Source: Paenarthrobacter histidinolovorans
Lineage (GTDB): Bacteria; Actinomycetota; Actinomycetes; Actinomycetales; Micrococcaceae
Direction of reading: 5' to 3'
NCBI RefSeq assembly: GCF_014647595.1
Contig: NZ_BMPM01000002.1
Location: forward strand, 434,001 to 498,000
DNA: 64,000 nucleotides
The position numbers were made by a program, and so were the translations under genes. This document shows positions 742 to 33,918 of this stretch, piece by piece (within the stretch, counting starts at the first letter, position 1; each line of letters begins with the position of its first letter). The notes under the pieces are model-generated. The model was not told where the DNA came from. It was given only the letters and a program-made list of their open reading frames with translations, and searched no databases.

Positions 742-2541
742 ATGCAGGTCCATAAGTACGACGTCGTCATTGTCGGTGCAGGTGGCGCCGGCATGCGCGC
801 CGCGATCGAGTCCGGTCAGCGCGCACGCACAGCGGTACTGACCAAGCTCTACCCCACCCGCTCGCACACCGGTGCAGCCCAGGGTGGTATGTGCGCAGCA
901 CTGGCCAACGTCGAAGAAGACAACTGGGAATGGCACACCTTCGACACCATCAAGGGTGGCGACTACCTGGTTGACCAGGACGCAGCAGAGGTCATGGCGA
1001 AGGAAGCCATCGACGCCGTGCTGGACCTGGAGAAGATGGGTCTGCCGTTCAACCGCACCCCCGAGGGCAGGATCGACCAGCGCCGCTTCGGTGGCCACAC
1101 CCGTGACCACGGCAAGGCTCCTGTCCGCCGTGCTTGCTATGCAGCCGACCGTACCGGTCACATGATCCTGCAGACCCTGTACCAAAACTGCGTCAAGCAC
1201 AACGTTGAGTTCTACAACGAGTACTACGTCCTTGACCTGCTGATCGTCGACGAAGACGCCGTACGCGAAGACGGCACGCCGTACAAGCAGAAGCGTGTGG
1301 CCGGTGTGGTCTCCTACGACCTCGCCTCAGGCGAACTGCACGTTTTCCAGGCCAAGTCCGTGGTGTTCGCCTCAGGTGGCGCGGGCAAGGTCTTCAAGAC
1401 CACGTCCAACGCACACACCCTCACGGGCGACGGCATGGGCATCGCCTTCCGCCGCGGCATCCCCCTGGAAGACATGGAGTTCTTCCAGTTCCACCCGACA
1501 GGCCTCGCAGGCCTGGGTATCCTCCTCACCGAGGGTGCACGTGGTGAAGGTGCCATCCTGCGTAACTCGGAAGGTGAGCGCTTCATGGAGCGCTACGCCC
1601 CCACCATCAAGGACCTCGCGCCCCGTGACATCGTGGCCCGTGCCATGGCCAACGAAGTGCGTGAGGGCCGCGGTTGTGGTCCGAACAAGGACTACGTCCT
1701 CCTGGACCTGACCCACCTTGAGCCGGCACACATCGAGGCCAAGCTTCCGGACATCACGGAGTTCGCCCGCACCTACCTGGGTGTGGAACCGTTCACCGAT
1801 CCCGTCCCCGTATTCCCCACCGCGCACTACGCCATGGGCGGCATTCCCACCAACATCACCACTGAGGTTCTCCAGGACAACGACACGATCGTTCCCGGAT
1901 TGTACGCAGCCGGTGAAGTTGCCTGTGTCTCCGTGCACGGCTCCAACCGCCTTGGCACCAACTCGCTCCTGGACATCAACGTGTTCGGCAAGCGTGCAGG
2001 CATCGCAGCCGCCGAATACTCCAAGACGGCCGACTTCGTCGAGCTGCCCGAGGACCCGGAAGCAATGACCCGGGGCATCCTGGACGGCCTGCTCAGCGGC
2101 AACGGCACCGAGCGTGTTGCGCAGATCCGCAAGGAACTGCAGGACACCATGGACGCCAACATGCAGGTGTTCCGCACCAAGGAATCCCTGGAGCAGGTCC
2201 TTCGCGACATCGCATCCTTCGAAGAGCGGTACAAGCACGTCACCGTCCAGGACAAGGGCAAGCGCTTCAACCTGGATCTCCTGGAAGCCGTGGAACTGGG
2301 CTTCCTTCTGGACATGGCCAAGGTCATGACCGTCGGTGCACTGCACCGTGAAGAGTCCCGTGGTGGCCACTACCGCGAGGACTTCCCGGACCGCGACGAC
2401 GAAAAGTTCATGAAGCACTCCATGGCTTACCTGGACAATTCCGTCACTGCCGCCTCCTCGGCGGAATCCGTTGCGGGCATCCGTCTGGAGACGAAGCCCG
2501 TGATCTTCACCCGTTACGAGCCGATGGAGCGTAAGTACTAA
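742..2541 (+). CDS. sdhA: Succinate dehydrogenase flavoprotein subunit
   Basis: 599 residues, the usual family length. It oxidises succinate to fumarate and carries covalent FAD. The Rossmann motif GAGGAG is at residues 12-17. The FAD-linking His is in [10 protein letters not shown] (His42). The substrate-site region shows HPTGL and, further on, [13 protein letters not shown]. An in-frame TTG lies 21 bases upstream, but the ATG at 742 is preferred: it follows a purine-rich GAAAGAGAGAG site and gives the standard N-terminus ([12 protein letters not shown]). The stop overlaps the sdhB start as TAATG, indicating translational coupling. Confidence 0.97.
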
Positions 2542-3323
2542 TGACGACCGAAATGGCAGAGCCCGCATCCAAGATCGAGCTTCCGGCGAGCGTTGCCGGC
2601 GACGGTGAAATTCCCACGTTCCACATCACGCTCCGCGTGCGCCGCTACGATCCGGAGATCTCCGAAGAAGCGCGCTGGGACGACTACAAGCTGACCATGT
2701 ACGGCACGGACCGTGTGCTGGATGCCCTGCACAAGGTCAAGTGGGAAATCGACGGCAGCGTATCCTTCCGCCGCTCCTGCGCCCACGGTGTCTGTGGATC
2801 CGATGCCATGCGCATCAACGGCCGCAACCGCCTCGCCTGCAAGACGCTGCTGAAGGACCTGGACACGTCCAAGCCCATCACCGTCGAGCCGATCAAGGGC
2901 CTCCCGGTGGAGAAGGACCTGATCGTGGACATGGAACCCTTCTTCCAGTCCTTCCGCGAAGTCATGCCGTTCCTGATCAACAAGGGCCACGAGCCCACCA
3001 AGGAGCGTCTGCAGTCCGTTGAGGACCGTGAGCGCTTTGACGACACCACCAAGTGCATCCTCTGCGCAGCGTGCACCTCGTCCTGCCCGGTCTTCTGGAC
3101 CGACGGCCAGTACTTCGGCCCGGCTGCAATCGTCAACGCACACCGCTTCATCTTCGATTCCCGTGATGACGCCGGCGACATGCGCCTTGAGATCCTCAAC
3201 GACAAAGAAGGCGTGTGGCGCTGCCGCACCACCTTCAACTGCTCGGAAGCGTGCCCCCGCGGCATCCAGGTGACCAAGGCAATCGCTGAGGTCAAGCAGG
3301 CCATTCTGGCCCGCAAGATCTAG
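2541..3323 (+). CDS. sdhB: Succinate dehydrogenase iron-sulfur subunit
   Basis: 260 residues. The N-terminal ferredoxin domain has the [2Fe-2S] ligand block SCAHGVCGSD...LAC, where Asp stands in the place of one Cys, as in E. coli SdhB. The C-terminal domain has CILCAACTSSCP and a second block CRTTFNCSEACPRG for the [4Fe-4S] and [3Fe-4S] clusters. It relays electrons from SdhA to the membrane anchor. It is the last gene of the operon: a long perfect stem-loop follows the stop and no gene follows closely on this strand. Confidence 0.97.
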   Translation: MTTEMAEPASKIELPASVAGDGEIPTFHITLRVRRYDPEISEEARWDDYKLTMYGTDRVLDALHKVKWEIDGSVSFRRSCAHGVCGSDAMRINGRNRLACKTLLKDLDTSKPITVEPIKGLPVEKDLIVDMEPFFQSFREVMPFLINKGHEPTKERLQSVEDRERFDDTTKCILCAACTSSCPVFWTDGQYFGPAAIVNAHRFIFDSRDDAGDMRLEILNDKEGVWRCRTTFNCSEACPRGIQVTKAIAEVKQAILARKI

Positions 3324-3350
3324 TCAGCCGTTCCTCGAAGAACAGCACGT

Positions 3351-3390
3351 CGACGGCGCCGCTCACCTCTGCAGGTGAGGGGCGCCGTCG
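3351..3390 (+). terminator. Stem-loop terminator of the sdh operon
   Basis: Outer arms CGACGGCGCC and GGCGCCGTCG are exact reverse complements. An inner pair CTCACCT/AGGTGAG closes on a four-base loop. TCGTT follows directly. The hairpin starts 27 bases after the sdhB stop, so it most likely ends the sdhCDAB transcript. Confidence 0.85.
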
Positions 3391-3438
3391 TCGTTAATCA
3401 AGTGCCGCAACCACACAACCCAACGCAAGGAGACCAGC

Positions 3439-4206
3439 GTGTCACGCTCTGAGAAGATCACCTTCACGGGAAGCACCGGCGATACGCTGGCCGGAATCGT
3501 GGACGTTCCCGAAGGCCCGGTACGCGGCTGGGGCCTCTACTCCCATGGGCTCACCCTGGGCAAGGACAGCCCGGCGGCTTCACGGATCTGCAAGGGGCTG
3601 GCCGAGCAGGGCGTGGGGATGCTCCGGTTCGACAACCTCGGCCTGGGTGGTTCCGGCGGCGAGTGGTCGGCCGGCTCTTTCAGCGTCAAGGTGGCCGATA
3701 CAATCCTGGCCGCAGCATTCATGCGGGAACAGGGACGGGCCATTTCCCTGCTGGTAGGTCATTCCTTTGGCGGTGCGGCGGTCCTCGCCGCTGCCCGCGA
3801 CATCCCGGGCCTCAACGCCGTGGTGACCGTGGCGGCGCCTTACGAACCCAAGCACGTGGAGCACATGTTCGACGCCGAGATTGACTCCATCCTTCGCGAC
3901 GGCAGCGCCGTTGTGGACCTGGGTGGCCGTCCGATGGAGGTTCGCCGCCACTTCGTCGAAGACGTGGAAAGTGCTGACCTGCGCGATTGCATCCGGACGC
4001 TCCACAAGCCCCTGATGGTAATGCACTCCCCCACCGACAACACCGTGGGCATCGACAACGCCAGCGAGATCTTCCAAACAGCCCGGCACCCGCGGAGCTT
4101 CATCTCCCTGGAGGGCAGCGAGCACCTTCTCACGGGGAAGGGCCAGGCTGCGCGGGTGGCGCGGATCATCGGCGCGTGGGCCGACCCTTACCTGGAAGTC
4201 TCCTAA
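3439..4206 (+). CDS. Alpha/beta hydrolase (lone N-terminal half of the hydrolase-OsmC type)
   Basis: 255 residues, with a GTG start behind an AAGGAGA site. The nucleophile elbow GHSFGG gives Ser109 or so. A late Asp (HSPTDNTV) and His (GSEHLLTG) complete a plausible Ser-Asp-His triad. There is no signal peptide, so it is probably cytoplasmic. The sequence resembles the hydrolase half of bifunctional alpha/beta-hydrolase/OsmC proteins, but no OsmC domain follows; the frame stops cleanly before a palindromic element. The substrate is unknown and could be a small ester or thioester. It stands alone between the sdh terminator and a convergent gene. Confidence 0.8.
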   Translation: MSRSEKITFTGSTGDTLAGIVDVPEGPVRGWGLYSHGLTLGKDSPAASRICKGLAEQGVGMLRFDNLGLGGSGGEWSAGSFSVKVADTILAAAFMREQGRAISLLVGHSFGGAAVLAAARDIPGLNAVVTVAAPYEPKHVEHMFDAEIDSILRDGSAVVDLGGRPMEVRRHFVEDVESADLRDCIRTLHKPLMVMHSPTDNTVGIDNASEIFQTARHPRSFISLEGSEHLLTGKGQAARVARIIGAWADPYLEVS

Positions 4207-4208
4207 AG

Positions 4209-4271
4209 CAACGCGGGGTCACTTGTGGCCCGTATTCCACCCCTGGACGGGCCAAAAGTGACCCCGCGTTG
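4209..4271. repeat. Palindromic repeat family A, copy 1
   Basis: Outer 15-base arms CAACGCGGGGTCACT and AGTGACCCCGCGTTG are perfect reverse complements. Inner arms TGGCCCGT/ACGGGCCA leave a short loop. It fills the gap between two convergent genes and begins 3 bases after the first stop, so it can serve as a two-way terminator. A second copy with the same arms lies at 8812-8878. Confidence 0.9.
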
Positions 4272-4278
4272 ATGACTG

Positions 4279-5580
4279 CTACTTACCGATGGCGGCTTTG
4301 CTTTCGCTCAGCCACTGCTCGGCACCCTTCTCCGGCGTGAGCCGCTTGAAGAGGACATCGGTGTTGATCCGCGCTGTGATCTCTGAAACGGCTGTCGAAC
4401 CTGTGGGACCAATGAAGGTGGGCGCGAAGTCCATCTTGCCGATCTGGTCGATATAGGCGGCCTCAACCTTGCCTTGGGGCGTGAGCAGCTCCTGGATGGC
4501 CGCCCGCGTGTCGGGGTTGCTGGGTACGCCTCGGTCGCTCTGGATGATCTTGGCTGCTGCCTCGCTGTTGACCAGGAAGCTCACCAGTTTGGCGGCGGCG
4601 TCAGTGTGCTTGCTGCGGGCGGAGATGGTGTAGAACTGCGAAGACTGGAGCCAGATGCCAGGGGTGGGAGTTTCGCCGGGGAGCTTGAGCAGCTTCAGTT
4701 CCGCGCCGGAGGCTTTGCTCAGTGCTGAGAGGGAGTTGCTCCACGTGAGCATCATGCCTGCCTGCCCCATTCCCATCAAGGTCTGTTCCGTACTGACATT
4801 GAGCTTCTCCACGGTCTCCGAGGCACTGGGGGCCGCGCCGGATTCGCTGAGCTTCAGCGAGAAATCGAAGTAGTCCTGCACAGTGTCCTTGTCCAGCCCC
4901 AGTTGGCCGTCCTGGGTGTACAAGGACTTGCCGCGTTGACGGGCGAAGGCGTCCAGGGAGTCGTGCGTGAGAACGGTGGCCGTGCCGTAGGTTCCCTTGG
5001 GACTCTTGGCAGTCACGTCTGCGGCGGTCTTGGCGAAGTCGTCCCAGGACCAGGTGTTGTCGTCCGGGACGGCTACGCCCGCTGCCTGGAAGACGGCGGG
5101 ATTCACCACCACCGCCAGTGCGTTGGCGCCGGTGGAGACGCCGTACTGCTTGCCCTGGACCTGGCCGTTTTCCAAGGCACCCTGGTCCATCTTGGACAGG
5201 TCAAGCGAGCTTTGGACCTTTGACAGGTCCAGGAGTGCTCCCCGGTTGGCGTATTCGGCCGGGTAGGCGCCACCCATGGTGATCACATCGGGAGCATCAT
5301 TGGCTGCCACCTGGGTGGCCAGTTTGTCGAAGTAGCCACTGATGTCGCCGTATTCGGGCTTGACCTTGATGTTCGGGTTGGCGGCCTCGAACTCCTGGAT
5401 TGCCTTGTTCGTCAGTTCGGCACGGGATGCATTGCCCCACCACGAAAAGCGGATCTCCACGGGCCCGTCTTCGGGCTGGTTTGAGGAAGGGCTGGAACAG
5501 GCCGCGGTCAGGCCCAGCATGCCCACGGCCGTCAGGAGGGCCAGGGATTTGCGGATGTTTCGAAGGGATTTACGCGTCAT
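4279..5580 (-). CDS. ABC transporter sugar-binding lipoprotein (family 1 solute-binding protein)
   Basis: 433 residues. The N-terminus has basic residues, a hydrophobic core and the lipobox LTAAC (Cys28), so it is a membrane-anchored extracellular lipoprotein. The mature part has the family 1 pattern: an early IRFSWWGNASR strand, FEAANPNIKVKPEY, and a late NSEAAAKII region. This family binds mono- or oligosaccharides for carbohydrate importers. No permease or ATPase gene lies nearby, so it must use transporter parts encoded elsewhere. It is divergent from a large glycosidase and shares a 111-base control region with it. Joint uptake and breakdown of a plant or fungal glycan is therefore inferred; the exact sugar cannot be read from the sequence. 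Confidence 0.9.
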   Translation of the reverse strand: MTRKSLRNIRKSLALLTAVGMLGLTAACSSPSSNQPEDGPVEIRFSWWGNASRAELTNKAIQEFEAANPNIKVKPEYGDISGYFDKLATQVAANDAPDVITMGGAYPAEYANRGALLDLSKVQSSLDLSKMDQGALENGQVQGKQYGVSTGANALAVVVNPAVFQAAGVAVPDDNTWSWDDFAKTAADVTAKSPKGTYGTATVLTHDSLDAFARQRGKSLYTQDGQLGLDKDTVQDYFDFSLKLSESGAAPSASETVEKLNVSTEQTLMGMGQAGMMLTWSNSLSALSKASGAELKLLKLPGETPTPGIWLQSSQFYTISARSKHTDAAAKLVSFLVNSEAAAKIIQSDRGVPSNPDTRAAIQELLTPQGKVEAAYIDQIGKMDFAPTFIGPTGSTAVSEITARINTDVLFKRLTPEKGAEQWLSESKAAIGK

Positions 5581-5604
5581 TGGGTAAGCTTCTTTCAGGC
5601 TTAA

Positions 5605-5628
5605 GAAAACGGTTCCTGAAACGTATCA
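5605..5628. promoter_or_regulatory. Two tandem LacI-type operator candidates
   Basis: GAAAACGGTTCC is directly followed by TGAAACGTATCA. Both are imperfect palindromes centred on CG, which is the usual form of LacI/CcpA-family operators. They lie between the divergent binding-protein and glycosidase starts, so one regulator could control both genes. No LacI gene is present in the window. Confidence 0.45.
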
Positions 5629-5691
5629 AAGGGGTGTATATTCGTCAATAGTTTTGTGCTTGAACTATTCCCGCCCCCAGAGGAGACCGCC

Positions 5692-8600
5692 GTGTCACAG
5701 CCCTTGGAACAGATCCAGATCCGGGATCCCTACGTCCTGACTCTGCCTGAATCGCAGGAGTATCTGCTCTTCGGCAGCACGGACCTGAACATCTGGTCCG
5801 GACCGGCTACAGGGTTCGACTGCTACAGGAGCAGCGACCTCGTGGACTGGGAGGGTCCGTTCCCGGCTTTCCGTCCCGCTCCGGAGTTCTGGAGCAAGGA
5901 GCAGTACTGGGCACCGGAAGTCCACGAGTACAAGGGCCGCTATTTCATGTTTGCCACGTTCACCGCTCCGGGCCATCGTCGAGGGACTCAAATACTCGCC
6001 TCGGCAGACCCGGAAGGCCCCTATGAGCCATGGAGCGATGGCCCCGTCACCCCCGGCGACTGGGAGTGCCTCGACGGAACGCTTCACATCGATGAGGACG
6101 GCGCCCCCTGGATGGTGTTCTGCCACGAATGGAAGCAGGTCAACGACGGCGGCATGGTCGCCCAACGCCTCAGCCCGGACCTGCGTACAGCCCAGGGAAA
6201 ACCGACGGTGCTGTTCAACGCCTCCGAGGCCCCTTGGTCCCGCGCCCTGGACAGGCCATCCGCGGCAGCCGGGGAAGGACCCGTGTATGTCACCGACGGC
6301 CCGTTCCTCCACAGGCTCCCCAGCGGCGACCTGATCATGTTGTGGTCCAGCTTTGCTGACACCGGATATGCCATGGGCATCGCGCGAAGCGAATCAGGGA
6401 CCATCCTTGGCCCCTGGATCCAGGAGGTGGAACCATTGTGGAGCACCGACGGCGGTCACGGCATGATCGGCCGGAAACTGGACGGCAGCCTCTTCCTGAC
6501 ATTGCATCAGCCCAACAAAAGCCCCCACGAGCGGGCGGCGTTCTTCCCGCTGCGGGAACTGGAACACACAGTGGTGCTGGAGCCGGCGGGTGGACCACAC
6601 TCCCCCGGCTCCATCGATCGGAAAGCCCTGGTGCGGCGCCACAACGTCCACCAACAGGAATTGGATTCCCGGAGCCCGGTGTCGGTGGGCAACGGCGAAT
6701 TTGCCTTCACCATGGACCTCACAGGATTCCAGACGTTGCCTGGCTCCTACCCCGTGGCTCCCCGCGATGACCTGCCAGCTGGCACCCTCCTGGGCACTCA
6801 ATCCCAGTGGGGTTGGCACACCATACCGTCCACTGAACCCTACGACCTCGACGGATCCACCGTGATCTACGATTCTCCGCGCGGACCCGTACCGTACGTG
6901 GACATGGTGGGCGACATCGTCAATGACCGCGAGACCAGTACCTCTGCGGCCGAAGATTGGCTCCGTGCAAACTCCCACAGGCTCGATCTTGGGCGCATCA
7001 GCCTCCGTTGGCTCCATAACGGCGTGGAGCGCGGGATACGGCCCGGGGAACTCACGCGCACCGCCCAGACGCTGGACCTGTGGACCGGAGTGGTAACCAG
7101 CCGCTTCTTCCTCGCCGGACACCCCGTCAAGATCACGACGGCGTGCCACCCGGACCGCGACGAGCTCGGCTTCCGCGTGGAGTCGACCGCACTCGGGGCC
7201 GGGTTGGTGGTGGGCGTCGCCTTCCCCTACGGCTCGGGAGCCTGGCACGACGCGGCTGACTGGAGCAACCCGGGAGCACACCGCACCACCCTTGCCGAAG
7301 CAACGCCGTCCGAAGAACACACCGGGTGCACGGTGTGGACTGCTGACCGTGAGCTGGACGACTCCCGCTACCAGGTCCTCATTGCCGGCCGGAACCTCAC
7401 TGTGGAGCAACCCGAGGAGCACCGGCTGCGCGTGCGCCCAGGAAGTCCAGCCCACCCCGGCAGCAATGGCGTCCTGGATTTCAGCATTTCCTTCCTTTCG
7501 TCCGGCGACGGTGACTGCCTGCCCCGGCACAACCACAGCTCCAGCGACCATACGCCGGACCCAGGCCGGACCGCCCACGCAAGTACCGGCGGCGTACTTT
7601 CTCCCGGCAGCAGCGTCGCAGCGGCCTCCTCAGCCCACTGGCCGGAGTTCTGGTCCACGGGCGGGGCCATCGAACTCCATGTCACGGAGGATCCGCGGGC
7701 CAAGGAGCTGGAACGCAGGGTTGTCCTGTCCCAATACCTGACAGCGATCAACTGCTCGGGTTCGCTGCCGCCGCAGGAAACGGGACTCGTCTGCAATTCC
7801 TGGCGCGGCCGCTTCCACCTGGAAATGCACTGGTGGCATGCGGCGCATTTTGCGCACTGGAACCGGGTGGAACTGCTTCTGCCATCCCTGCGCTGGTACG
7901 CGACAATCCTGGACGTGGCGCGGCAAACTGCCACAGCACAGGGTTTCGACGGCGTCCGCTGGCCCAAGCAGGTAGGTCCGGACGGGCGGGAGAGCCCCAG
8001 CCCGATCGGCACCTTCCTGATCTGGCAGCAGCCACACCCGATCTACCTGGCCGAGCTGGTCTACCGGGCCAATCCGGGCCCGGAGGTGCTGGAGGAGTTC
8101 GCCGGGATCGTGTTCGAAACAGCGGCTTTCATGGCCAGCTTTGCGCACCAAACCTCGCGCGGATTCGAGCTGGGTCCGCCCTTGATTCCGGCGCAGGAGA
8201 GCTACGGCGCAATCAGGGCCTCGGTCACCAACCCCACATTTGAACTGGCGTACTGGCAGTGGGGCCTTGAAACCGCCGCTGCTTGGCGCGAACGGCTGGG
8301 GCTGGAAGCTGTGGAGGAATGGTCTGTTGTTGCGAAGGCGATGGTTGCGCCAAAGGTGCGGGACGGCGTCTACGCAGCCATCGACGTCGCACCGTTCACC
8401 ATCCGCACCGACCATCCATCCATGCTGTGCGCGCTGGGTGTCCTCCCGCAGACCGATGTGATCGATCCTGACATCATGCGTGCCACCTTGAAGGACGTCC
8501 TGGCGGATTGGGATTGGGACAGTACCTGGGGATGGGATTATCCCGTGATGGCCATGACCGCCGCTCGCCTGGGCGACCCGGAGACCGCCGTGGATGCGCT

Positions 8601-8808
8601 TCTGCTGGATGCGGGAAAGAACACCGTGCTGCCCAACGGCCACAACCGCCAGACCGATTCCCTGCCGCTGTACCTGCCCGGCAACGGTGGACTCCTGGCC
8701 GCTGTGGCCCTGATGGCTGCCGGCTGGGACAACGGACCAGAGCGGCATGCACCAGGATTCCCGGAGGACTGGACCGTGGCTTGGGAAGGGCTGGTGCAAT
8801 CGCCCTGA
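5692..8808 (+). CDS. Two-domain glycosidase: GH43-like five-bladed propeller plus predicted six-hairpin glycosidase domain
   Basis: 1038 residues with no signal peptide, so probably intracellular. Residues about 8-315 read as GH43: RDPYV (Asp12 as likely general base), YWAPEVHEYKGRYF, LDGTLHIDEDGAPWMVF and VTDGPFLHRLPSG. At the last site a GP motif that usually follows Glu follows Asp, which seems typical of this subgroup. From about 320 a second module begins (HNVHQQELDSRSP, VGNGEFAFTMDLTG). It extends to the end with many Trp and acidic pairs, such as WHAAHFAHWNRVE and DSTWGWDYP, like (alpha/alpha)6 glycosidases. GTG at 5692 follows AGGAG at 5681; an upstream in-frame TTG lacks such a site. 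The substrate is likely an arabinose- or xylose-containing or rhamnosyl glycan. Confidence 0.82.
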   Translation: MSQPLEQIQIRDPYVLTLPESQEYLLFGSTDLNIWSGPATGFDCYRSSDLVDWEGPFPAFRPAPEFWSKEQYWAPEVHEYKGRYFMFATFTAPGHRRGTQILASADPEGPYEPWSDGPVTPGDWECLDGTLHIDEDGAPWMVFCHEWKQVNDGGMVAQRLSPDLRTAQGKPTVLFNASEAPWSRALDRPSAAAGEGPVYVTDGPFLHRLPSGDLIMLWSSFADTGYAMGIARSESGTILGPWIQEVEPLWSTDGGHGMIGRKLDGSLFLTLHQPNKSPHERAAFFPLRELEHTVVLEPAGGPHSPGSIDRKALVRRHNVHQQELDSRSPVSVGNGEFAFTMDLTGFQTLPGSYPVAPRDDLPAGTLLGTQSQWGWHTIPSTEPYDLDGSTVIYDSPRGPVPYVDMVGDIVNDRETSTSAAEDWLRANSHRLDLGRISLRWLHNGVERGIRPGELTRTAQTLDLWTGVVTSRFFLAGHPVKITTACHPDRDELGFRVESTALGAGLVVGVAFPYGSGAWHDAADWSNPGAHRTTLAEATPSEEHTGCTVWTADRELDDSRYQVLIAGRNLTVEQPEEHRLRVRPGSPAHPGSNGVLDFSISFLSSGDGDCLPRHNHSSSDHTPDPGRTAHASTGGVLSPGSSVAAASSAHWPEFWSTGGAIELHVTEDPRAKELERRVVLSQYLTAINCSGSLPPQETGLVCNSWRGRFHLEMHWWHAAHFAHWNRVELLLPSLRWYATILDVARQTATAQGFDGVRWPKQVGPDGRESPSPIGTFLIWQQPHPIYLAELVYRANPGPEVLEEFAGIVFETAAFMASFAHQTSRGFELGPPLIPAQESYGAIRASVTNPTFELAYWQWGLETAAAWRERLGLEAVEEWSVVAKAMVAPKVRDGVYAAIDVAPFTIRTDHPSMLCALGVLPQTDVIDPDIMRATLKDVLADWDWDSTWGWDYPVMAMTAARLGDPETAVDALLLDAGKNTVLPNGHNRQTDSLPLYLPGNGGLLAAVALMAAGWDNGPERHAPGFPEDWTVAWEGLVQSP

Positions 8809-8811
8809 TCA

Positions 8812-8878
8812 AGCAACGCGGGGTCAGATATGGCCCATCCGGGGGTGCATTACGGGCCATAAGTGACCCCGCGTTGCT
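8812..8878. repeat. Palindromic repeat family A, copy 2
   Basis: Arms AGCAACGCGGGGTCA and TGACCCCGCGTTGCT are exact reverse complements. Inner arms TATGGCCC/GGGCCATA match the inner arms of copy 1. It starts 3 bases after the glycosidase stop and ends just before the stop of the small convergent gene, the same placement as copy 1. Confidence 0.9.
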
Positions 8879-8879
8879 C

Positions 8880-9032
8880 TTAGCGGCTGCGCGGGCCTAC
8901 TGCCGCACCAACGAGCGCACCCAGACCCACGCCGATCAGGATGCCAAGGAAAGGTGAGTTGAAAATCAGCTGCCCCGTTATCAAGCCCGCGGCAGCTCCC
9001 AGGAGGCAGGCAATCCAGAGCTGATTGTTCAT
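8880..9032 (-). CDS. Small two-span glycine-rich membrane protein (50 residues)
   Basis: Reading the minus strand from the ATG at 9032 gives 50 codons: MNNQLWIACLLGAAAGLITG, a short polar turn (NSPF), a second Gly/Ala-rich hydrophobic stretch, and a basic end (GPRSR). A good GGAGG site lies six bases upstream of the ATG. Both spans carry small-residue repeats (GAAAG, GVGLGALVGAAVG) that favour tight helix packing, as in glycine-zipper proteins. It begins 18 bases after the yihY stop on the same strand, so the two are probably co-transcribed. The function is unknown. It is short enough to be missed by automatic annotation. Confidence 0.75.
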   Translation of the reverse strand: MNNQLWIACLLGAAAGLITGQLIFNSPFLGILIGVGLGALVGAAVGPRSR

Positions 9033-9050
9033 TGGGCCTCCACTGTATGC

Positions 9051-10136
9051 TCAGGTGCGCGGTGCTACGCGACGCGAACCGAGGACTCTCTTACGCGGGG
9101 TCTCCCCTGACTCGGTATCGGCCTCGCGGATGGCTGACCACGACGCTGAAACGAGATAGACCTGGCTGACAAGGTTGAACCAGATCAGCAAGCCAATGAT
9201 GATGGCAAACGAGGCCAGGACGGGATTGTTCCCGGACCGGGCCAGAAGTTCCGTACTGAAGAACTGCAGAACCGTTGTCCCGACGCCGGCAAGCACCACG
9301 CCTTCGAGGAACGCCCGGCGCGTCAACGCGAGGCTGCCTGCGACGCGGAACAGCACGGCCGCCGTCGCGCAGTTCAAAAGAAGGGGAACGACGATCTTGA
9401 CGATCGCCGCAATGGGGGCCGCGACGGTCTCGTCGAGCTTCAGGATGTCGAAGAACCAGTCCGCGGCAGTCCCGAAAATCAGGGACGCCCCGGCGCTGAC
9501 CACCAGGATCACGCCAAGGAGCAGCAGGGTTCCGGCGTCGATGAGCTTCTGGAGGATGGCGTTGCGGATCAAGGGGCCGACGCCCATGACTCCGCGCAGC
9601 CCCTCCCGGACGCTGGCAATCCAACCCAGGGAAGTGAAGATGGTGACGGCGGCGGCAATGACCGCAGTCCAGCCCAGGCCGGAGGGGTTCAGCAAAGACT
9701 GGGGATCCACCAGGCCTTCGCCACCATTGACCTGGAGCAGGCCGGGCGCCGCGGAGGCAACACTCCGGATCACCGCGTCTTCGAGAACCGGATTGCCACC
9801 CAGGACAATGCCTGCAACAGCAAAGCCCGTGGTGAGTAGACCTGTCACGGAGAAGAACATGTTGAAACCGATGCCCGCACTCAGCAAGGGGCCGTGCTGC
9901 CGCGTGTAGTGCTGGAACGAGCGCATGGCCCGATTGGTGTTCAGCCGGGCAATGAACAACGCAAAGAAGGCGCCAGCCTTCTTCAGTGCGCCATCGCCGG
10001 CACGCTTGGCATGACCCCAGTCCTGCCGCTTCCGGAGCAGCTCAAGCTTGAGTTTCGCCAGCTCAGTTGGCAGTGGAGGAGTGTCCGCCTCCGTGGCCTG
10101 AATCCGCTTGCTGTTCTTCGTCAGTATCGCCGCCAA
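9051..10136 (-). CDS. YihY/virulence factor BrkB family inner membrane protein
   Basis: About 361 residues. A basic amphipathic N-terminus (LAKLKLELLRKRQDWGHAKRAG) leads to six predicted membrane spans. Family landmarks are the first span after FQHYTRQHGPLLSAGIGFNMFFS, a central TSLGWIASVREGLRGVMG loop and a last pair of spans ending LVSQVYLVSASWSAI. The C-terminus is basic (RKRVLGSRRV). The role of the family is not settled; it was once misassigned as RNase BN. The start is uncertain: no ATG lies near, and the TTG at 10136 behind GGAAGAG is chosen. This overlaps the end of the LigT-like gene by 74 bases. A later CTG or TTG start is possible. Confidence 0.8.
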   Translation of the reverse strand: MAAILTKNSKRIQATEADTPPLPTELAKLKLELLRKRQDWGHAKRAGDGALKKAGAFFALFIARLNTNRAMRSFQHYTRQHGPLLSAGIGFNMFFSVTGLLTTGFAVAGIVLGGNPVLEDAVIRSVASAAPGLLQVNGGEGLVDPQSLLNPSGLGWTAVIAAAVTIFTSLGWIASVREGLRGVMGVGPLIRNAILQKLIDAGTLLLLGVILVVSAGASLIFGTAADWFFDILKLDETVAAPIAAIVKIVVPLLLNCATAAVLFRVAGSLALTRRAFLEGVVLAGVGTTVLQFFSTELLARSGNNPVLASFAIIIGLLIWFNLVSQVYLVSASWSAIREADTESGETPRKRVLGSRRVAPRT

Positions 10137-28032: not shown

Positions 28033-29632
28033 GCCCGCTACCGCCCGCCTGAGCTTCGTCACGCTTGACCAGTTCCTCAAGCAGCTGCCGCCCGAGTTGA
28101 AAATACTTCACGACGGCGGCAGCGGCGGCTCGCTGCTGCGGTGGGTGGAACCCAGTGAGCTCGAAGACCCCACGCCCTACCTGCCCGAAGGCGAATTCCT
28201 GCTCACCGCCGGGCTGCCCTTCCTCGGGGAGGGCGGCACGGCGGCGAAGGTGGACGCCTACGTCCGGCGGCTCGTGGACGCCAAGGTTGCCGCACTGGGG
28301 TTCGGCATCAGGCCCTATTTCGACGCCGTACCTGAGGCCCTGGTAGAAGCCTGCCGCACCCATGACCTGACGCTGTTCGAAGTACCGGAGTCTGTGCCGT
28401 TCGCGGCGATCGGTCTTGAATTCTCGCAGCTCCTGGAGACGGACAACGCCCGTGTTTTCCGGCAGCTGGCCGAGACCAACCGGCAGCTCATGCGCGCGGT
28501 CCTCTCCCCCAGGCCGGAACACGAACTGTTGGCCGCCCTCGTCCAGCGCGTACCCGTGTGGGCCCTGCTGGTGGGGGCCGACGGGCGGGTCCGGGCCCGC
28601 GGGCACAATGCCGGCGGCAGCTCCGGCGTCGAGCATTCATTGCTGGCACCGATGCTGGAGAGGCTGCTGTCCGGCAGCGGACCGCGCGTGGAGATGGACG
28701 GCTTTGAGCAACCGGGATCGGCGCTGGTGTTCGGGCACCCTCTGCGGAGTACCAAAGACGCGAACCTTGGCGCACTGATCCTCGGTTCGGACGCGCCGCT
28801 GACGCCAGCGCAGAACAACGTGGTGCAGTCGGCGGTGGGGTTGCTGGAACTGTTGGTGCGGCAACGGACCAGCGGGTCCCTGGCACCGAGCCAGCTCGCA
28901 ACGGCGGTTCTGCTGCACCCGGAGTCGCTGGTATCCGGCGGGACCAAGCACGTCAACGGCCTCAAGGACCTGCTGGCACAGAGCTTGTCGTCCACCAGGT
29001 CGGCGCAGATGCGGGTCATCCAGGGAGTACGGGTGGATGGGGCGGCCGACGACGGTCCGGTGCGCGAGGTGCTCCAATGGCGGCGTCTGTTCGACACCAA
29101 GCTGGTGGAGATCACCGAGTACGGTTTCGCGGCGATCACCCGTTTGCGGGTCGATGATTCACTGCTGGCCGATATCGAAAAACTGGGCTGGCGCCTGGTG
29201 ATTGGCGAACCGACAGAACTTCACGGGCTCTCCGCGGCCTATCAGCGGGCAAGCTCCCTGCGGTCCCGGGTCCTCTCCAGTGGCATGAGCGCACGCGTGG
29301 ACGAGGTGACGTGGACGGTCACCGGCCTCCTTGGGCGGGAAGCGGGGACCATGCTGGCCGAGCGGCTTCTGGCGCCCGTGCTGGCGTTGGAACCGGACCG
29401 CCGGGATCCGCTGCTGTCGGTGCTCAGGGGATGGCTCAGCGAAAACGGCAGTTGGGACGGTTCCGCCAAACTACTCGGCCTGCACCGGAACAGTGTGCGC
29501 CGGCAGATAGGCGTGCTGGGCGAACTCCTGGACATGGACCTCAACCAGGCACAGGTCCGGGCTGAGCTGTGGTTCGCGCTGCAGTACGTGGACGAGCTGG
29601 TGGACTCAACGGAGCTGGCGGGCACCACCTAG
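28022..29632 (+). CDS. PucR-family transcriptional regulator
   Basis: 536 residues from ATG 28022. The N-terminal PucR domain (about 10-130) reads LDQFLKQLPPELKILHDGG...FLLTAGLPFLG. A GGDEF-like/central domain follows. The C-terminal PucR helix-turn-helix (about 455-520) has LRGWLSENGSWDGSAKLLGLHRNSVRRQIG in parts. Members usually activate nitrogen or amine catabolism genes next to them, so the permease-oxidase and alr genes are the natural targets. The overlap with alr means translation is coupled. Confidence 0.9.
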   Translation: MSPEPATARLSFVTLDQFLKQLPPELKILHDGGSGGSLLRWVEPSELEDPTPYLPEGEFLLTAGLPFLGEGGTAAKVDAYVRRLVDAKVAALGFGIRPYFDAVPEALVEACRTHDLTLFEVPESVPFAAIGLEFSQLLETDNARVFRQLAETNRQLMRAVLSPRPEHELLAALVQRVPVWALLVGADGRVRARGHNAGGSSGVEHSLLAPMLERLLSGSGPRVEMDGFEQPGSALVFGHPLRSTKDANLGALILGSDAPLTPAQNNVVQSAVGLLELLVRQRTSGSLAPSQLATAVLLHPESLVSGGTKHVNGLKDLLAQSLSSTRSAQMRVIQGVRVDGAADDGPVREVLQWRRLFDTKLVEITEYGFAAITRLRVDDSLLADIEKLGWRLVIGEPTELHGLSAAYQRASSLRSRVLSSGMSARVDEVTWTVTGLLGREAGTMLAERLLAPVLALEPDRRDPLLSVLRGWLSENGSWDGSAKLLGLHRNSVRRQIGVLGELLDMDLNQAQVRAELWFALQYVDELVDSTELAGTT

Positions 29633-29690
29633 ATGCCACCGAATTCTTCTGTGCAAGCGGTTTTTACCACTCATTTTTGTCGTTTTTCGG

Positions 29691-29720
29691 CACCTAGTTT
29701 GGCCTGAAAGCGACTAGGTG
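29691..29720. promoter_or_regulatory. Inverted repeat upstream of the small-peptide gene
   Basis: CACCTAGT and ACTAGGTG are exact reverse complements with 14 bases between. They lie about 80 bases before the peptide start in an A/T-rich stretch. T-runs precede rather than follow the repeat, so an operator is more likely than a terminator for the pucR gene. Confidence 0.5.
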
Positions 29721-29799
29721 GCTGCTTATGGTGCTTAGCCTCCTCGTGGGCGTCGAAAATCATCGGCGCCGAAATGATCATGATTTCCGAGGGGGAAAT

Positions 29800-30039
29800 A
29801 TGTTCGCTACAACAGCAGTACAGGCCACTGGCACCGTGGCCGCCATCAGGAGCAAGATCGACGACATGGTCATCCGTTACGACGGTTGGTTCCTCGTCCT
29901 GCTCGCTGTGCTCATGGTTCTCGCATTCGCAATTCTGGGTGCCATGGCGATCTGGTGCCTGACTTCCGGACGCGGACGGTTTGTCGGCAACTGGAGCTGG
30001 AACCAGTGGGGCGTTTCCGTGTGGGTGGAATGCGTCTAG
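29800..30039 (+). CDS. 79-residue single-span peptide with Trp-rich C-terminal tail; candidate precursor of a secreted peptide
   Basis: ATG 29800 follows GAGGGGGAAAT, a very strong ribosome site. Residues 1-29 are polar (IRSKIDDMVIRYDG), 30-54 form one hydrophobic span (WFLVLLAVLMVLAFAILGAM to IWCL), and 55-79 are an exposed tail. The tail has a small basic hinge (TSGRGRF) and then VGNWSWNQWGVSVWVECV with four Trp and one Cys. No known family is recognised. A strong hairpin follows the stop, then genes for an ABC transporter and an M50-like intramembrane peptidase. This is the arrangement expected for a precursor cut in or near its membrane span. An antimicrobial or signal peptide is inferred, not shown. 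Confidence 0.7.
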   Translation: MFATTAVQATGTVAAIRSKIDDMVIRYDGWFLVLLAVLMVLAFAILGAMAIWCLTSGRGRFVGNWSWNQWGVSVWVECV

Positions 30040-30052
30040 TCCTCAGATAACC

Positions 30053-30087
30053 GCTGTGGTGGCATTTCCGCGGGATGCCACCACAGC
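30053..30087 (+). terminator. 13-base-pair hairpin between peptide gene and ABC genes (attenuator candidate)
   Basis: GCTGTGGTGGCAT and ATGCCACCACAGC pair perfectly around a nine-base loop. It starts 13 bases after the peptide stop and lies 22 bases before the ATPase ATG. No T-tract follows, so partial read-through is expected. This would give more peptide than transporter message, as in bacteriocin operons. Confidence 0.75.
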
Positions 30088-30109
30088 CAGAGCACGGAGC
30101 CGAAACCCA

Positions 30110-30826
30110 ATGCCTCTAACTGTCGACCACGTCGATTACGCGTACACCCTTCAGAAGCAAGTGCTGCATGACGTCTCGCTCAGCATTTCCGAGAACACAA
30201 TCCTTGGCCTTATCGGTCCCAACGGATCAGGCAAATCAACACTCATAAAAGTTATCCTCGACCTTCTGCAGACGCAGGGCGGCAGCATCCGTATCGACGG
30301 ACAACTGAACTCCACCCGAAGTGCCAAAGTGTCCTCAATCTACCTATCCAGCAACGATTACCTGCCAGAGTTCCTTACCGGCGAGGAATACCTCCGGTTC
30401 ATGCATGGTCTCTACGCCGAGCCGCTGGACCTGGAGGTCCTTGAAAATCACTTTGCCCGGTATTCGATGAGTGGTCGTCACCGTGACCTCATAGAAGATT
30501 ACTCCCACGGTATGCGGAAGAAGCTGCAGCTCATTGCGGCATTCATGCTGAAACGTCGCCTCACTGTCATTGATGAGACGCTCAACGGCGTGGACATCGA
30601 ATCAGTGGGAATCTTTGAAAAGGATGTTCGGGATCTCGCCAACGATGGGCGTTCAGTACTGTTGTGCAGCCATGACTTCGGCGTTCTGGAGAACGTAGCC
30701 GACGACGTTGCTGTCCTCATCCAGGGTGCCTTGGTATTCCAAGGGGATCTGGATTCAGTCAACAGAGACTACGGCAATCTGTCGGCTCTTGCATCTGAAT
30801 ACATCCAGTCGATGGGAGCCGAGTAG
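30110..30826 (+). CDS. ABC transporter ATP-binding protein with non-standard motifs
   Basis: 238 residues, ATG behind CGGAG. Walker A is the standard GPNGSGKST (about 36-44) and Walker B keeps the catalytic Glu (LTVIDETLNGVD). The usual Q-loop glutamine is replaced (YLSSNDYLPEFLTGEE), the signature reads YSHGMRKK instead of LSGGQ, and the D-loop is GVD after ETLN rather than EPTSGLD. The switch His is kept (LLCSHDFG). The NatA-like layout suggests an exporter or immunity ATPase working with the permease encoded directly after it (0-base gap). Codons are richer in A/T than in surrounding genes. Confidence 0.88.
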   Translation: MPLTVDHVDYAYTLQKQVLHDVSLSISENTILGLIGPNGSGKSTLIKVILDLLQTQGGSIRIDGQLNSTRSAKVSSIYLSSNDYLPEFLTGEEYLRFMHGLYAEPLDLEVLENHFARYSMSGRHRDLIEDYSHGMRKKLQLIAAFMLKRRLTVIDETLNGVDIESVGIFEKDVRDLANDGRSVLLCSHDFGVLENVADDVAVLIQGALVFQGDLDSVNRDYGNLSALASEYIQSMGAE

Positions 30827-32254
30827 ATGCGGCTCGAGAGTATTGTCCTGTTGTTTCGGCTGTTTTGGACATTTATTCTCCGACGGGTCCTGGGACGTGG
30901 ACTCCTGGCCTCAAGAATGATGCGGATTACGGGCGCATTCATAGTGATTATCGGCTTTGCAGGCTTCAATGTTCTCAGCTACACGGTGATGCGGCAGTAT
31001 CTCGGGGGAACCGATCTATTCGAACCCGTCCTGGCAATCGCGAATGTTTCTGTGGGTTTTTGGGTCCTGATTGCCTACACGCTGATACGGGTCCTCTTCT
31101 TGAAGGCGGATGAACTTCTAAAATTGTCCTTCAACCTTCCTGCCACGAATAAGGAACGAACGTTGGCCTTCGCCCTGTTCGAAGCATCGGTGGTGGCGGT
31201 GATAACAGTTTTTGTTTTCGGCGCATTCTCAATATCCACAGTGCTCCTTGAGGGCCCAGCCTTCATCACGAACATCGTGGTGTCGATTTGGCTTCCCGTA
31301 GCGTCTATGTACCTGCTCCTCAGCGTGGCCTATTACCTTTTGGAACGCGGCCTAATCGTGATGAGGTTGGCGCGATTGCGTGGACTGTTGGTGCCGATGA
31401 TACTGGCGTTGGGTCTCTCGGTCCTTTTCCCGTACACGAATGAGCAGACTGCCGTGATCGCCGAAAGCTTCATCGAGGGGCGGGACTACGTTTCCCCACT
31501 TCTGGTGTACTCCATGCTGGAAAAGAACTTCGGTTTGTGGCTTGCTGTGCTGATCTTTGCAGCGGCATCCACGGCAATTGTGGCCGGCATCGTGGCAGCT
31601 GCTCCCAGGGCCTACGTTCCCCTTCGTCGCTTCATCGTCGTGCTCCCTTCGAGGATTGCCACATGGAGGCTTGGGGCCTACACCCTGGTGTTGTTCCGCA
31701 GTTTCGAAACTCTTGTAGCCGTCATCTTCGTCTTTGCATTTGCCCTGTTTGCATGGCTGCAGCATATTATTCTGCCACCCTACGTCTTGGCACTTATTAC
31801 ATTCCAGGGCGTGTACGCCTACGTCAACTCCGAGCCATTACGACGCATGTCTGCGCTGCGTTTCAGTGCCTGGAAAAACTATCTGAGTATCGTCTGCTCG
31901 CAGTTGATCCTCTGGGTGACAGTCGCTATCCCAGTGGTTGCAGTCAGTCTTGCTCAAGGCATCGAAGTCTCTGCATGCCTTCCTGTAGCAGGATTCTGCC
32001 TCAGCAATATTCTCATCTCCACGCTGATTGGTATCGCATTCCCACCTGAAAAGGGAAATCCGTTCACGGTTCTGGTCGGGGCAGTACTGGCTATCATCAT
32101 CATTTTGACAATTGCACTTGGTCTTAACGTGTTCAATCTCAAACCGGTCGTCAGCGCGGTTGTTTATTCAGTTCTTAATATATTGGTCGTAATGTACAGC
32201 ATCCTCGGCATGCGGAGAATGGAAAGGATTCAACGCCATGAAGTGGCTTCTTAG
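30827..32254 (+). CDS. Polytopic ABC-type permease of the peptide island
   Basis: 475 residues with about 11-12 predicted spans and short basic loops (LRRVLGRGLLASRMMR, MRRMERIQRHE). No large extracellular domain and no known motif were found. The ATG follows the ATPase stop directly (TAGATG), so the two form one transporter. Its role could be export of the Trp-rich peptide or self-protection against it. Third positions have many A/T bases compared with flanking genes, supporting recent acquisition. It overlaps the next gene by 17 bases. Confidence 0.8.
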   Translation: MRLESIVLLFRLFWTFILRRVLGRGLLASRMMRITGAFIVIIGFAGFNVLSYTVMRQYLGGTDLFEPVLAIANVSVGFWVLIAYTLIRVLFLKADELLKLSFNLPATNKERTLAFALFEASVVAVITVFVFGAFSISTVLLEGPAFITNIVVSIWLPVASMYLLLSVAYYLLERGLIVMRLARLRGLLVPMILALGLSVLFPYTNEQTAVIAESFIEGRDYVSPLLVYSMLEKNFGLWLAVLIFAAASTAIVAGIVAAAPRAYVPLRRFIVVLPSRIATWRLGAYTLVLFRSFETLVAVIFVFAFALFAWLQHIILPPYVLALITFQGVYAYVNSEPLRRMSALRFSAWKNYLSIVCSQLILWVTVAIPVVAVSLAQGIEVSACLPVAGFCLSNILISTLIGIAFPPEKGNPFTVLVGAVLAIIIILTIALGLNVFNLKPVVSAVVYSVLNILVVMYSILGMRRMERIQRHEVAS

Positions 32255-32549
32255 AATTATTACCGCAGTTTCAATCTCATTTGTGATCACCATGGCACTG
32301 GTGGTCGCCGGCTTCATCATGGCCATGTTTTCAACCATGGACGTTGGCGTCAGAAAGTTTGGGCTTTTCGGTGCCATCTTCTTCGAGGCCCATGATCAGC
32401 CCAGCGGCGCGACAGCCCTTGAGATTGGGATCGCTGATGGCACACCCATTGCGGTCATCTTCTGCGTTGCCTTCTTGTTCTGTCTGGCGGTCACAGTGGT
32501 CCTTGAAAAGCTCAAGCTCCACAAGAAGCAACTGCTGCAAGCACGGTAG
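32238..32549 (+). CDS. Two-span membrane protein of the peptide island
   Basis: 103 residues. Spans are at about 4-30 (IITAVSISFVITMALVVAGF) and 68-90 (GTPIAVIFCVAFLFCLAVTVV). A loop of about 35 residues lies between them (STMDVGVRKFGLFGAIFFEAHDQPSG), and the C-terminal tail is basic (KLKLHKKQLLQAR). The start overlaps the permease end. No family is recognised. Small two-span proteins in such loci are often immunity proteins or transporter accessories; that is inference. Confidence 0.7.
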   Translation: MKWLLRIITAVSISFVITMALVVAGFIMAMFSTMDVGVRKFGLFGAIFFEAHDQPSGATALEIGIADGTPIAVIFCVAFLFCLAVTVVLEKLKLHKKQLLQAR

Positions 32550-32551
32550 CG

Positions 32552-33079
32552 GTGAAGCTCAGCGCTGTTCCCATTGGTGATCTCAAGGTGACGGTGGCCG
32601 CGAAAAGCCTGCTGTGGGCCATCCGTGTTCCTGGCGTGGCGCTGGCCATCGGCTTCACTGGCTGCGCAGTCTGCGCCATTGCGGGAGTTCCCGCGATCCT
32701 GCAACCGGCTCTCTGGTTGTTGATCCATGCCTCCTGCCTGCTCTTGGGCTTTGTCATTCACGAGGGCTCCCACGTCCTCGGCCTCAAGCTGACCCCGGGA
32801 ATTACCCACGTCATCTTTGCGGGCAGCTGGCTACGTTTCTCCGTCGTTCCCATGGGAAGCCTCGTGGGCTGGCAGGCGGCACTTATCGCCTTGGGCGGTC
32901 CCCTGGCGGCGTGTGTCGCAGGAGTGCCGCTGGCTGCGGCGTTGCCTGACCAGGCGTTTCACTGGTGGTTCTTCCTGCACTCCATATTCCTGTTGCCTCC
33001 GTTCGGCGACGGAAGGAGCCTGGTCAAGGGCCTCCTAAATTGGAGAAGGCCGTTACAACTGCTGCAGATGGACTCCTAG
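32552..33079 (+). CDS. M50-like intramembrane metallopeptidase (site-2 protease type)
   Basis: 175 residues, GTG start two bases after the previous stop. The zinc motif HEGSH (HExxH, residues 70-74) lies inside a hydrophobic span. IALGGPLAA matches the GP segment seen after it in M50 proteins. The third-ligand region is LLPPFGDGRSL (Asp153). Four to five spans are predicted. It could cut the membrane-spanning precursor encoded at the start of the island, similar in logic to YydH in the Bacillus yyd locus. The stop overlaps the convergent nitrilase gene stop by four bases. An alternative is a DUF3267-type zincin of unknown target. Confidence 0.75.
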   Translation: MKLSAVPIGDLKVTVAAKSLLWAIRVPGVALAIGFTGCAVCAIAGVPAILQPALWLLIHASCLLLGFVIHEGSHVLGLKLTPGITHVIFAGSWLRFSVVPMGSLVGWQAALIALGGPLAACVAGVPLAAALPDQAFHWWFFLHSIFLLPPFGDGRSLVKGLLNWRRPLQLLQMDS

Positions 33080-33918
33080 TCCGCCCACTCCCGGTACAGT
33101 TCCGGCCTGCGCTCGCGCAAGTATGGGACTTCGTCGCGGGCAGCTTTGACTGTTTCCGTGCCGACCTCGGCGAACAACAAGGCAGCGCCCTCCCCAGCGG
33201 CAGCGAGCAGCGAGCCGTCAGGACCGGCCACCACGCTGCCCCCGAGGAAGTTGTAGACATCCTCATGCCCTGAGTGGTTGGCATAGGCCACGTTCAACTG
33301 GCTCTCCAGGGCCCGCGCACGGATGAGCACTTGTGGCACATTGTCGAATCCGGCTGACAGTGCCGTTGGGACCAGGAGGAGTTCGGCCCCGCGGGTGGCT
33401 GCGGCGCGCACCGTTTCAGGGAACTCGACGTCGTAGCAGATCAGCATCGACGTGCGGATTCCGTTGAAATCCACGACGCCGGGCGGTTCTTGGGCGCCGA
33501 CGAACGCCTTGTGCTCCTCTGGACCGAAGAGGTGGACCTTGGCGTAGTTGAGGACCTCGTTGCCTGCCGCGTCCAACAAAGTAGCCGTGATGTGCCTGGC
33601 GCTATCAGCGTGAGGCGGCTGCGCGGCGTCGTCGTACTGCTCCTGAATCCGCGCCTGTGCCAACGCCGGGAGACTGTAGACCAAGCCAATCCTGTGGGTG
33701 CGGGCAATCATGGCAAGGCGTTCCCGGATCGCAGGGAGGGTTGCGGGGTCCAGTTCGGCGTGCAGGCGCAATGGCGCATAGCCCACAGGAAACAGTTCCG
33801 GCGTGAGGAGCAGTCCGGCCCCTGCCTGTGCGGCACGGCGGGCCGCGTCATTGATCGTGCGCAGATTCGCGTCAACGTCCATCACGGAAGCGTTGGCTTG
33901 CAGGACTGAGAGCAGCAT
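33076..33918 (-). CDS. Carbon-nitrogen hydrolase (nitrilase superfamily amidase)
   Basis: 280 residues from ATG 33918 behind AAGGTGG. The Glu-Lys-Cys triad is visible: LLTPELFPVGY (Glu41), NYAKVHLFGPEE (Lys) and MLICYDVEFPET (Cys). Other family marks are LLLVPTAL and the GGSVVAGPDG strand. It hydrolyses an amide or nitrile; the R-amidase/omega-amidase branch is most similar in style. It faces the peptide island and is transcribed alone. A 308-base gap separates it from the divergent ROK gene, holding one degraded family B repeat and no gene. Confidence 0.88.
   Translation of the reverse strand: MLLSVLQANASVMDVDANLRTINDAARRAAQAGAGLLLTPELFPVGYAPLRLHAELDPATLPAIRERLAMIARTHRIGLVYSLPALAQARIQEQYDDAAQPPHADSARHITATLLDAAGNEVLNYAKVHLFGPEEHKAFVGAQEPPGVVDFNGIRTSMLICYDVEFPETVRAAATRGAELLLVPTALSAGFDNVPQVLIRARALESQLNVAYANHSGHEDVYNFLGGSVVAGPDGSLLAAAGEGAALLFAEVGTETVKAARDEVPYLRERRPELYREWAD

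Follow-up and report, generated by a model that had tools for sequence, protein, structure and literature searches.

The question raised by this locus is what five tightly packed genes for a small one-span peptide, an ATP-binding cassette (ABC) ATPase and permease, a two-span protein and a membrane protease could make together. They lie on the forward strand in the order tmcA-tmcB-tmcC-tmcE-tmcP at 29800-33079 of the window, the 64,000-nucleotide stretch of Paenarthrobacter histidinolovorans DNA analysed here (contig NZ_BMPM01000002.1, positions 434,001 to 498,000), and all five reading frames claimed in an earlier note on this DNA are confirmed. We conclude that these genes very probably form a TMcin cluster, predicted from its sequence to produce, cut and secrete a 51-residue bacteriocin, which would assemble into large pores in the membranes of rival bacteria and kill them. 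The TMcin class is already in print, its occurrence in Actinomycetota included, and the window carries a further cluster of that class. The direct observations concern gene content and order, conservation, the cysteine register, a structure model of an S2P-like protease, covariation in a hairpin, and an empty insertion site. New in this analysis are the covarying hairpin, an insert too small for a sixth gene, two loci whose tmcA is broken beside open tmcBCEP, and a Roseburia relative that carries a thioredoxin/DsbD-like gene.

TMcins were described in 2025, and according to PMC12328743 and PMC13252029, the precursor contains a single helix, its 45-residue leader is removed by TmcP, a protease of the S2P clan, and a C25-C50 disulfide is required for killing. 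In the same accounts TmcBC secretes the peptide, TmcE is its escort, and the product forms beta-barrel pores. Homologues are reported there from Bacillota and Actinomycetota in three gene arrangements, with tmcD missing outside the staphylococci; the word Arthrobacter does not occur in the searched text of either paper (the main text for PMC12328743).

Gene content and identity of the cluster

The operon content of a TMcin cluster, tmcA, tmcB, tmcC and tmcP plus a two-span tmcE, is present in the window. The 79-residue precursor encoded by tmcA (29800-30039) has a predicted leader of residues 1-28 and a predicted product of residues 29-79, with cysteines at 53 and 78. It is followed by tmcB (30110-30826; ABC ATPase, 238 residues), tmcC (30827-32254; polytopic permease, 475 residues), and tmcE (32238-32549; 103 residues), whose start overlaps the end of tmcC. 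The earlier note had recognised the small two-span product of tmcE and missed its published role as escort. The last gene, tmcP (32552-33079), has a GTG start and encodes an S2P-like metalloprotease of 175 residues with HEGSH from residue 70 and GDG from residue 152. Only the ATPase scores above Pfam cut-offs among the five proteins (ABC_tran, E 1.6e-21, and also AAA_21); the permease and the two-span protein give chance-level Pfam rows only, and for the peptide neither Pfam nor NCBIfam returned anything usable.

The HExxH and distal aspartate motifs are invariant in 28 TmcP sequences, as in the S2P clan, and the list of folds resembling the TmcP model is led by SpoIVFB and mjS2P with moderate scores. 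Against Pfam DUF3267 (PF11667) the window TmcP scores 15.2 bits, below the gathering cut-off of 27.1, and 12 of 28 relatives match this family at E <= 1 (best 3.1e-4).

The earlier note had read the locus as a peptide system that combines an M50-like peptidase with ABC export and has no radical SAM enzyme, and this much stands for the five proteins; its comparison with YydF is not the closest one, the TMcins being nearer. In a YydF-type system the protease would free a short tail peptide acting on envelopes or as a signal, and the ABC pair would be its exporter or immunity device. One operon does hold a peptide, an M50-type protease and an ABC pair, but none of the five proteins is a radical SAM enzyme and the insert has no room for one. 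What is conserved is the helix together with the tail, in a fixed cysteine register, and each of the five genes has a counterpart in a TMcin-type cluster. We reject this explanation on the missing radical SAM gene and the detailed TMcin match, and give it very little credence.

The TmcA precursor

The spacing of the cysteines agrees with that of published TMcins. C53 and C78 are invariant in 47 TmcA sequences, and, counted from the predicted cut, the first cysteine occupies position 25 in all 47 aligned peptides, the window included. The two cysteines follow a 25/25 register in 37 of the 47 (among them the window), 25/24 in seven and 25/26 in three, the published register being C25/C50. W30 is invariant and W52 nearly so across these 47 sequences, such that conserved tryptophans flank the single helix as they do in a TMcin. 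The structure model of TmcA has a helix at residues 30-56 followed, as in a TMcin, by a two-stranded beta sheet (strands 61-68 and 71-78; predicted local distance difference test score of the block 74-75), and a search for solved structures resembling TmcA returned chance-level rows only (E 0.059 and 0.32). Elsewhere the host genome gives two DsbA-like matches (Thioredoxin_4) and a single VKOR. The earlier note had proposed looking for fragments of the tail. In the published TMcin model the protease removes the N-terminal leader and helix and tail together are the product, so tail-only fragments are the wrong target; the cysteine register gives exact product masses to look for instead. Calculated for residues 29-79 with one disulfide, the monoisotopic mass is 5708.93 Da (2.016 higher once reduced), and a cut shifted by one residue would give 5823.95 or 5651.91.

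It might also be supposed that TmcA is not secreted and stays with the transporter as a permanent small subunit, which TmcP trims as a means of regulation. Conservation spans the whole of TmcA rather than the tail alone (20 invariant positions in 17 sequences), and TmcA always accompanies the transporter, both of which would suit a subunit. However, the staphylococcal homologue is a secreted peptide that kills, as reported in PMC12328743, and tmcA is last or duplicated in three clusters (L068, L081 and L073), which probably fits a product better than a subunit. We therefore regard a subunit role as highly improbable, and take TmcA to be a TMcin precursor.

By analogy with TMcin-G1905, the precursor would be inserted in the membrane with its tail outside, where a C53-C78 disulfide, formed here by general host oxidases, would close the tail. 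TmcE would then hold TmcA and present it to TmcP for cutting at D28/G29, and TmcBC would extract the helix-plus-hairpin peptide from the membrane. In Gram-positive targets the product may form a beta-barrel ringed by its own helices.

Conservation and distribution

Within a genus sample of 206 genomes the protease matches in 21, the permease in 20 and the peptide in 19. One of these 19 (G067) is discounted, being a 33-residue match with neither a tmcA frame nor a tmc partner. Twenty loci were fetched, comprising all TmcP matches except the window's own, and the order peptide-ATPase-permease-two-span-protease is seen wherever the contig permits. Chance is excluded by this conservation of gene order across the genus together with 53 protein clusters that match the peptide profile at E <= 0.01. 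These clusters are labelled hypothetical or carry no label, save one with an unrelated-looking label, and the sources named for them are Arthrobacter, Paenarthrobacter, Leifsonia, Rhodoglobus, Microbacterium, Arachnia and Paenisporosarcina.

Had the ABC and protease genes regularly occurred without the peptide, the earlier proposal of a peptide system would have been in doubt; the peptide keeps company with its partners, a full tmcA being present in 17 of the 20 same-genus tmcC loci, with two truncated and one (G157) cut by the end of the contig. The truncated copies are in G037, where the start and approximately residues 1-43 are missing, and G203, where only the end is left. In both (L025 and L036) tmcB, tmcC, tmcE and tmcP are open and of normal length, and the Walker A, ABC signature, HExxH and GDG motifs are all present. 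This would fit a locus serving in some strains for resistance only, with tmcBCEP retained and tmcA dead. However, two cases are few, the locus L032 in genome G160 (6176-9570) is broken the opposite way, a full-length tmcA standing beside a tmcB that is broken into two frames and a tmcC interrupted by approximately 1.25 kb of inserted DNA, and the idea has no bearing on the window, where tmcA is complete and conserved. We think it very improbable. Genome G145 has a protease remnant only.

In a class-wide draw TmcP matches in five of 394 genomes, four of them in full A-B-C-E-P loci; the fifth (G753) is a weak match in a different, 383-residue protein with no other tmc genes, and was set aside. 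A family-wide draw gave the peptide in eight of 395 genomes. Five of these belong to the genus; among the remaining three, two carry the complete five-gene set and G470 appears decayed, with tmcB in two frames, tmcC partial and tmcE not found. Scanning genome contigs with the peptide yielded 31 loci, whose 13 named genera are 12 actinobacterial ones and Enterococcus, the nearest named relatives being Arthrobacter. All five genes are found in 17 of 20 loci outside the Arthrobacter group; L074 is without tmcE and has a short tmcC match, and L078 and L080 end at contig edges. Because these 20 loci were found by the peptide itself, they are uninformative about partners without a peptide. The genes of L068 (Enterococcus villorum) are arranged B-C-E-P-A, and L073 (Paractinoplanes maris) has two nearly identical tmcA copies in tandem (7419-7607 and 8001-8189) ahead of tmcB.

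The insert and its site

Alignment to the empty site of L125 places the inserted cassette at 29633-33079 (forward strand), with a PucR-type regulator gene on its upstream side and a nitrilase-type gene downstream. The feature that the earlier note began at 29691 is real, with a better start at 29633, the end of the preceding gene, or at 29800, the start codon. The A/T-richness that it claimed is borne out: the insert is 54.5% G+C, and the segment 30001-33000 (54.4%) is below every one of 680 overlapping 3-kb segments sampled over 400 kb of this genome (mean 62.9%, minimum 55.3%). The composition is uneven across the insert, tmcP alone being 62%.

Sixteen of the 20 fetched loci have the same flanking genes as the cluster in the window, which we take, by family resemblance, to be alanine racemase-like and PucR-like upstream and nitrilase-like and ROK-like downstream. 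Only the downstream flank is visible in L036 and L037, and L038, L039 and L040 are at other locations. PucR was sought in 39 relatives; among the best 21 loci, which were read, the pucR-nitrilase site is empty with the genes adjacent in 17, occupied in three including the window, and unassigned in L135. Four state changes, two of them forced by starred branches, are needed on a quickly built PucR tree whose 31 rows are 14 occupied and 17 empty sites (L031, L036, L037 and L135 left out), indicating recurrent gain and loss of the cassette. In the close pair L024 (occupied) and L142 (empty) the PucR genes are 95.7% identical over 1469 columns and the nitrilase genes 89.9% over 743 columns, and mismatches start clustering in the last ~50 bases of pucR, which weakly suggests segment exchange by recombination.

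Upstream of tmcA is an 8-bp inverted repeat (CACCTAGT/ACTAGGTG, 29691-29698/29713-29720) with a 14-base spacer; its reading as an operator was dropped, as the repeat is not conserved in near relatives when compared by eye. No promoter-like site was found on the forward strand in a promoter/terminator scan of 29500-33300, and there is no Rfam match up to E 1 in 29600-33200.

A hairpin between tmcA and tmcB

The gap between tmcA and tmcB contains a hairpin at 30053-30087 (forward strand), with perfect 13-bp arms (30053-30065 and 30075-30087) and a 9-nucleotide loop. The gap folds with z < -2 in 28 of 33 loci (median -3.65; the others are L028, L034, L058, L075 and L076), whereas equal stretches upstream of tmcA do so in eight of 33 (median -0.91); in the window this upstream stretch is likewise well folded (z -3.20). 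In an alignment of 15 of the 18 genus gaps, without L024, L028 and L040, the 13 stem pairs are 96.9% paired and five pairs change on both sides. The covariation score is 0.290 against 0.172 in shuffles, with none of 500 as high, and at most 0.095 when the alignment is slid. Three points weigh against covariation: the number of pair types does not exceed that of shuffles (424 of 500 as high), the five both-side pairs are reached by 26 of 500 shuffles, and the score is inflated by kinship. The letters of the stem differ between Arthrobacter and Streptomyces.

In the scan of 29500-33300 the hairpin is absent from the terminator-like list, because there is no T run behind the stem. The word "hairpin" was not found in the searched text of PMC12328743 or PMC13252029, and a literature search for precedent gave off-topic results only; relative to that published text the covarying hairpin is new here. 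It may have a dosing role, keeping the precursor transcript in excess over the machinery transcript.

Self-protection

Self-immunity is left uninvestigated in PMC13252029, and the cluster in the window is a compact chromosomal version of this bacteriocin class. Alignment to the empty site shows five genes in the insert and no sixth, so protection, if it travels with the cluster, should sit among them. Clustering of stop-to-stop frames of at least 80 codons in 22 loci gave, besides the five genes and overlapping antisense or shifted frames, clusters of at most five loci only; proteins shorter than 80 residues would be missed, and immunity could also lie elsewhere in the genome. TmcE is presumed in PMC13252029 to prevent autotoxicity, and we infer that TmcE or TmcBC protects the producer. 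A bolder and rather doubtful proposal is that the actinobacterial TMcin is complete in five genes with its own self-protection, TmcE and TmcBC doubling as immunity, the hairpin setting the dose of pore-former to protector, and the loci with dead tmcA being resistance alleles. If true, this would explain how producers in this class protect themselves, a question that has been open.

Comparison with known systems

The Bacillus yydFGHIJ locus (epipeptide YydF), compared here by gene content, likewise has a small peptide, an M50-type protease and an ABC pair. Unlike it, the five-gene cluster is without a radical SAM epimerase, its predicted product keeps the membrane helix, and a two-span escort is present.

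Closer relatives are found on plasmids. A tblastn search with TmcA matched none of 72,556 plasmid and 50,697 phage records, a weak null because it missed the peptide of pHOB2; the same kind of search of plasmids with the permease gave two records, Staphylococcus epidermidis pHOB2 and a Roseburia plasmid. The TMcin-type cluster of pHOB2 (strain 14.1.R1; NZ_CP018844.1, 728-4654; L081) has all five genes, matched one by one to the window genes or their profiles: TmcB is 36% identical, TmcC 25% over 477 columns (E 2e-35), and TmcE matches by profile with probability 98.9. It differs from the cluster in the window in its order (B-C-E-P-A), its 98-residue precursor and the distance of its TmcB and TmcC (25-36% identity). 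None of pHOB2's 13 annotated genes is named DsbA. The exceptional antimicrobial activity of strain 14.1.R1 was tentatively ascribed by its authors to a type VII system (PMC5347227), and the pHOB2 cluster is another possible cause.

The plasmid of the anaerobe Roseburia sp. 831b (NZ_CP135163.1; L082) has a TMcin-like set at 1151-9416, in the order tmcA-like (1151-1387), tmcE-like (1444-1803, by eye), tmcP-like, a gene for a 502-residue protein, a cysteine-desulfurase-like gene, an IS110 element, tmcB and tmcC. The 502-residue protein, with 30 relatives, combines two CxxC thioredoxin stretches with a DsbD-like membrane part, and would be another kind of redox partner; tmcD is reported in PMC13252029 to be missing outside the staphylococci.

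The closest described system is the TMcin-G1905 cluster of S. aureus plasmid pCT545 (NZ_LFNJ01000005.1), as presented in PMC12328743 and PMC13252029. The cluster in the window differs in having tmcA first rather than last, a predicted leader of 28 rather than 45 residues, neither tmcD nor the helix-turn-helix bicistron, a hairpin after tmcA, and a chromosomal location in an actinobacterium. Common to both are a one-span precursor with two cysteines 25 residues apart and tryptophans at both ends of the helix, an S2P-type protease with HExxH and a distal aspartate, an ABC ATPase, a permease of approximately 12 spans, and a two-span protein.

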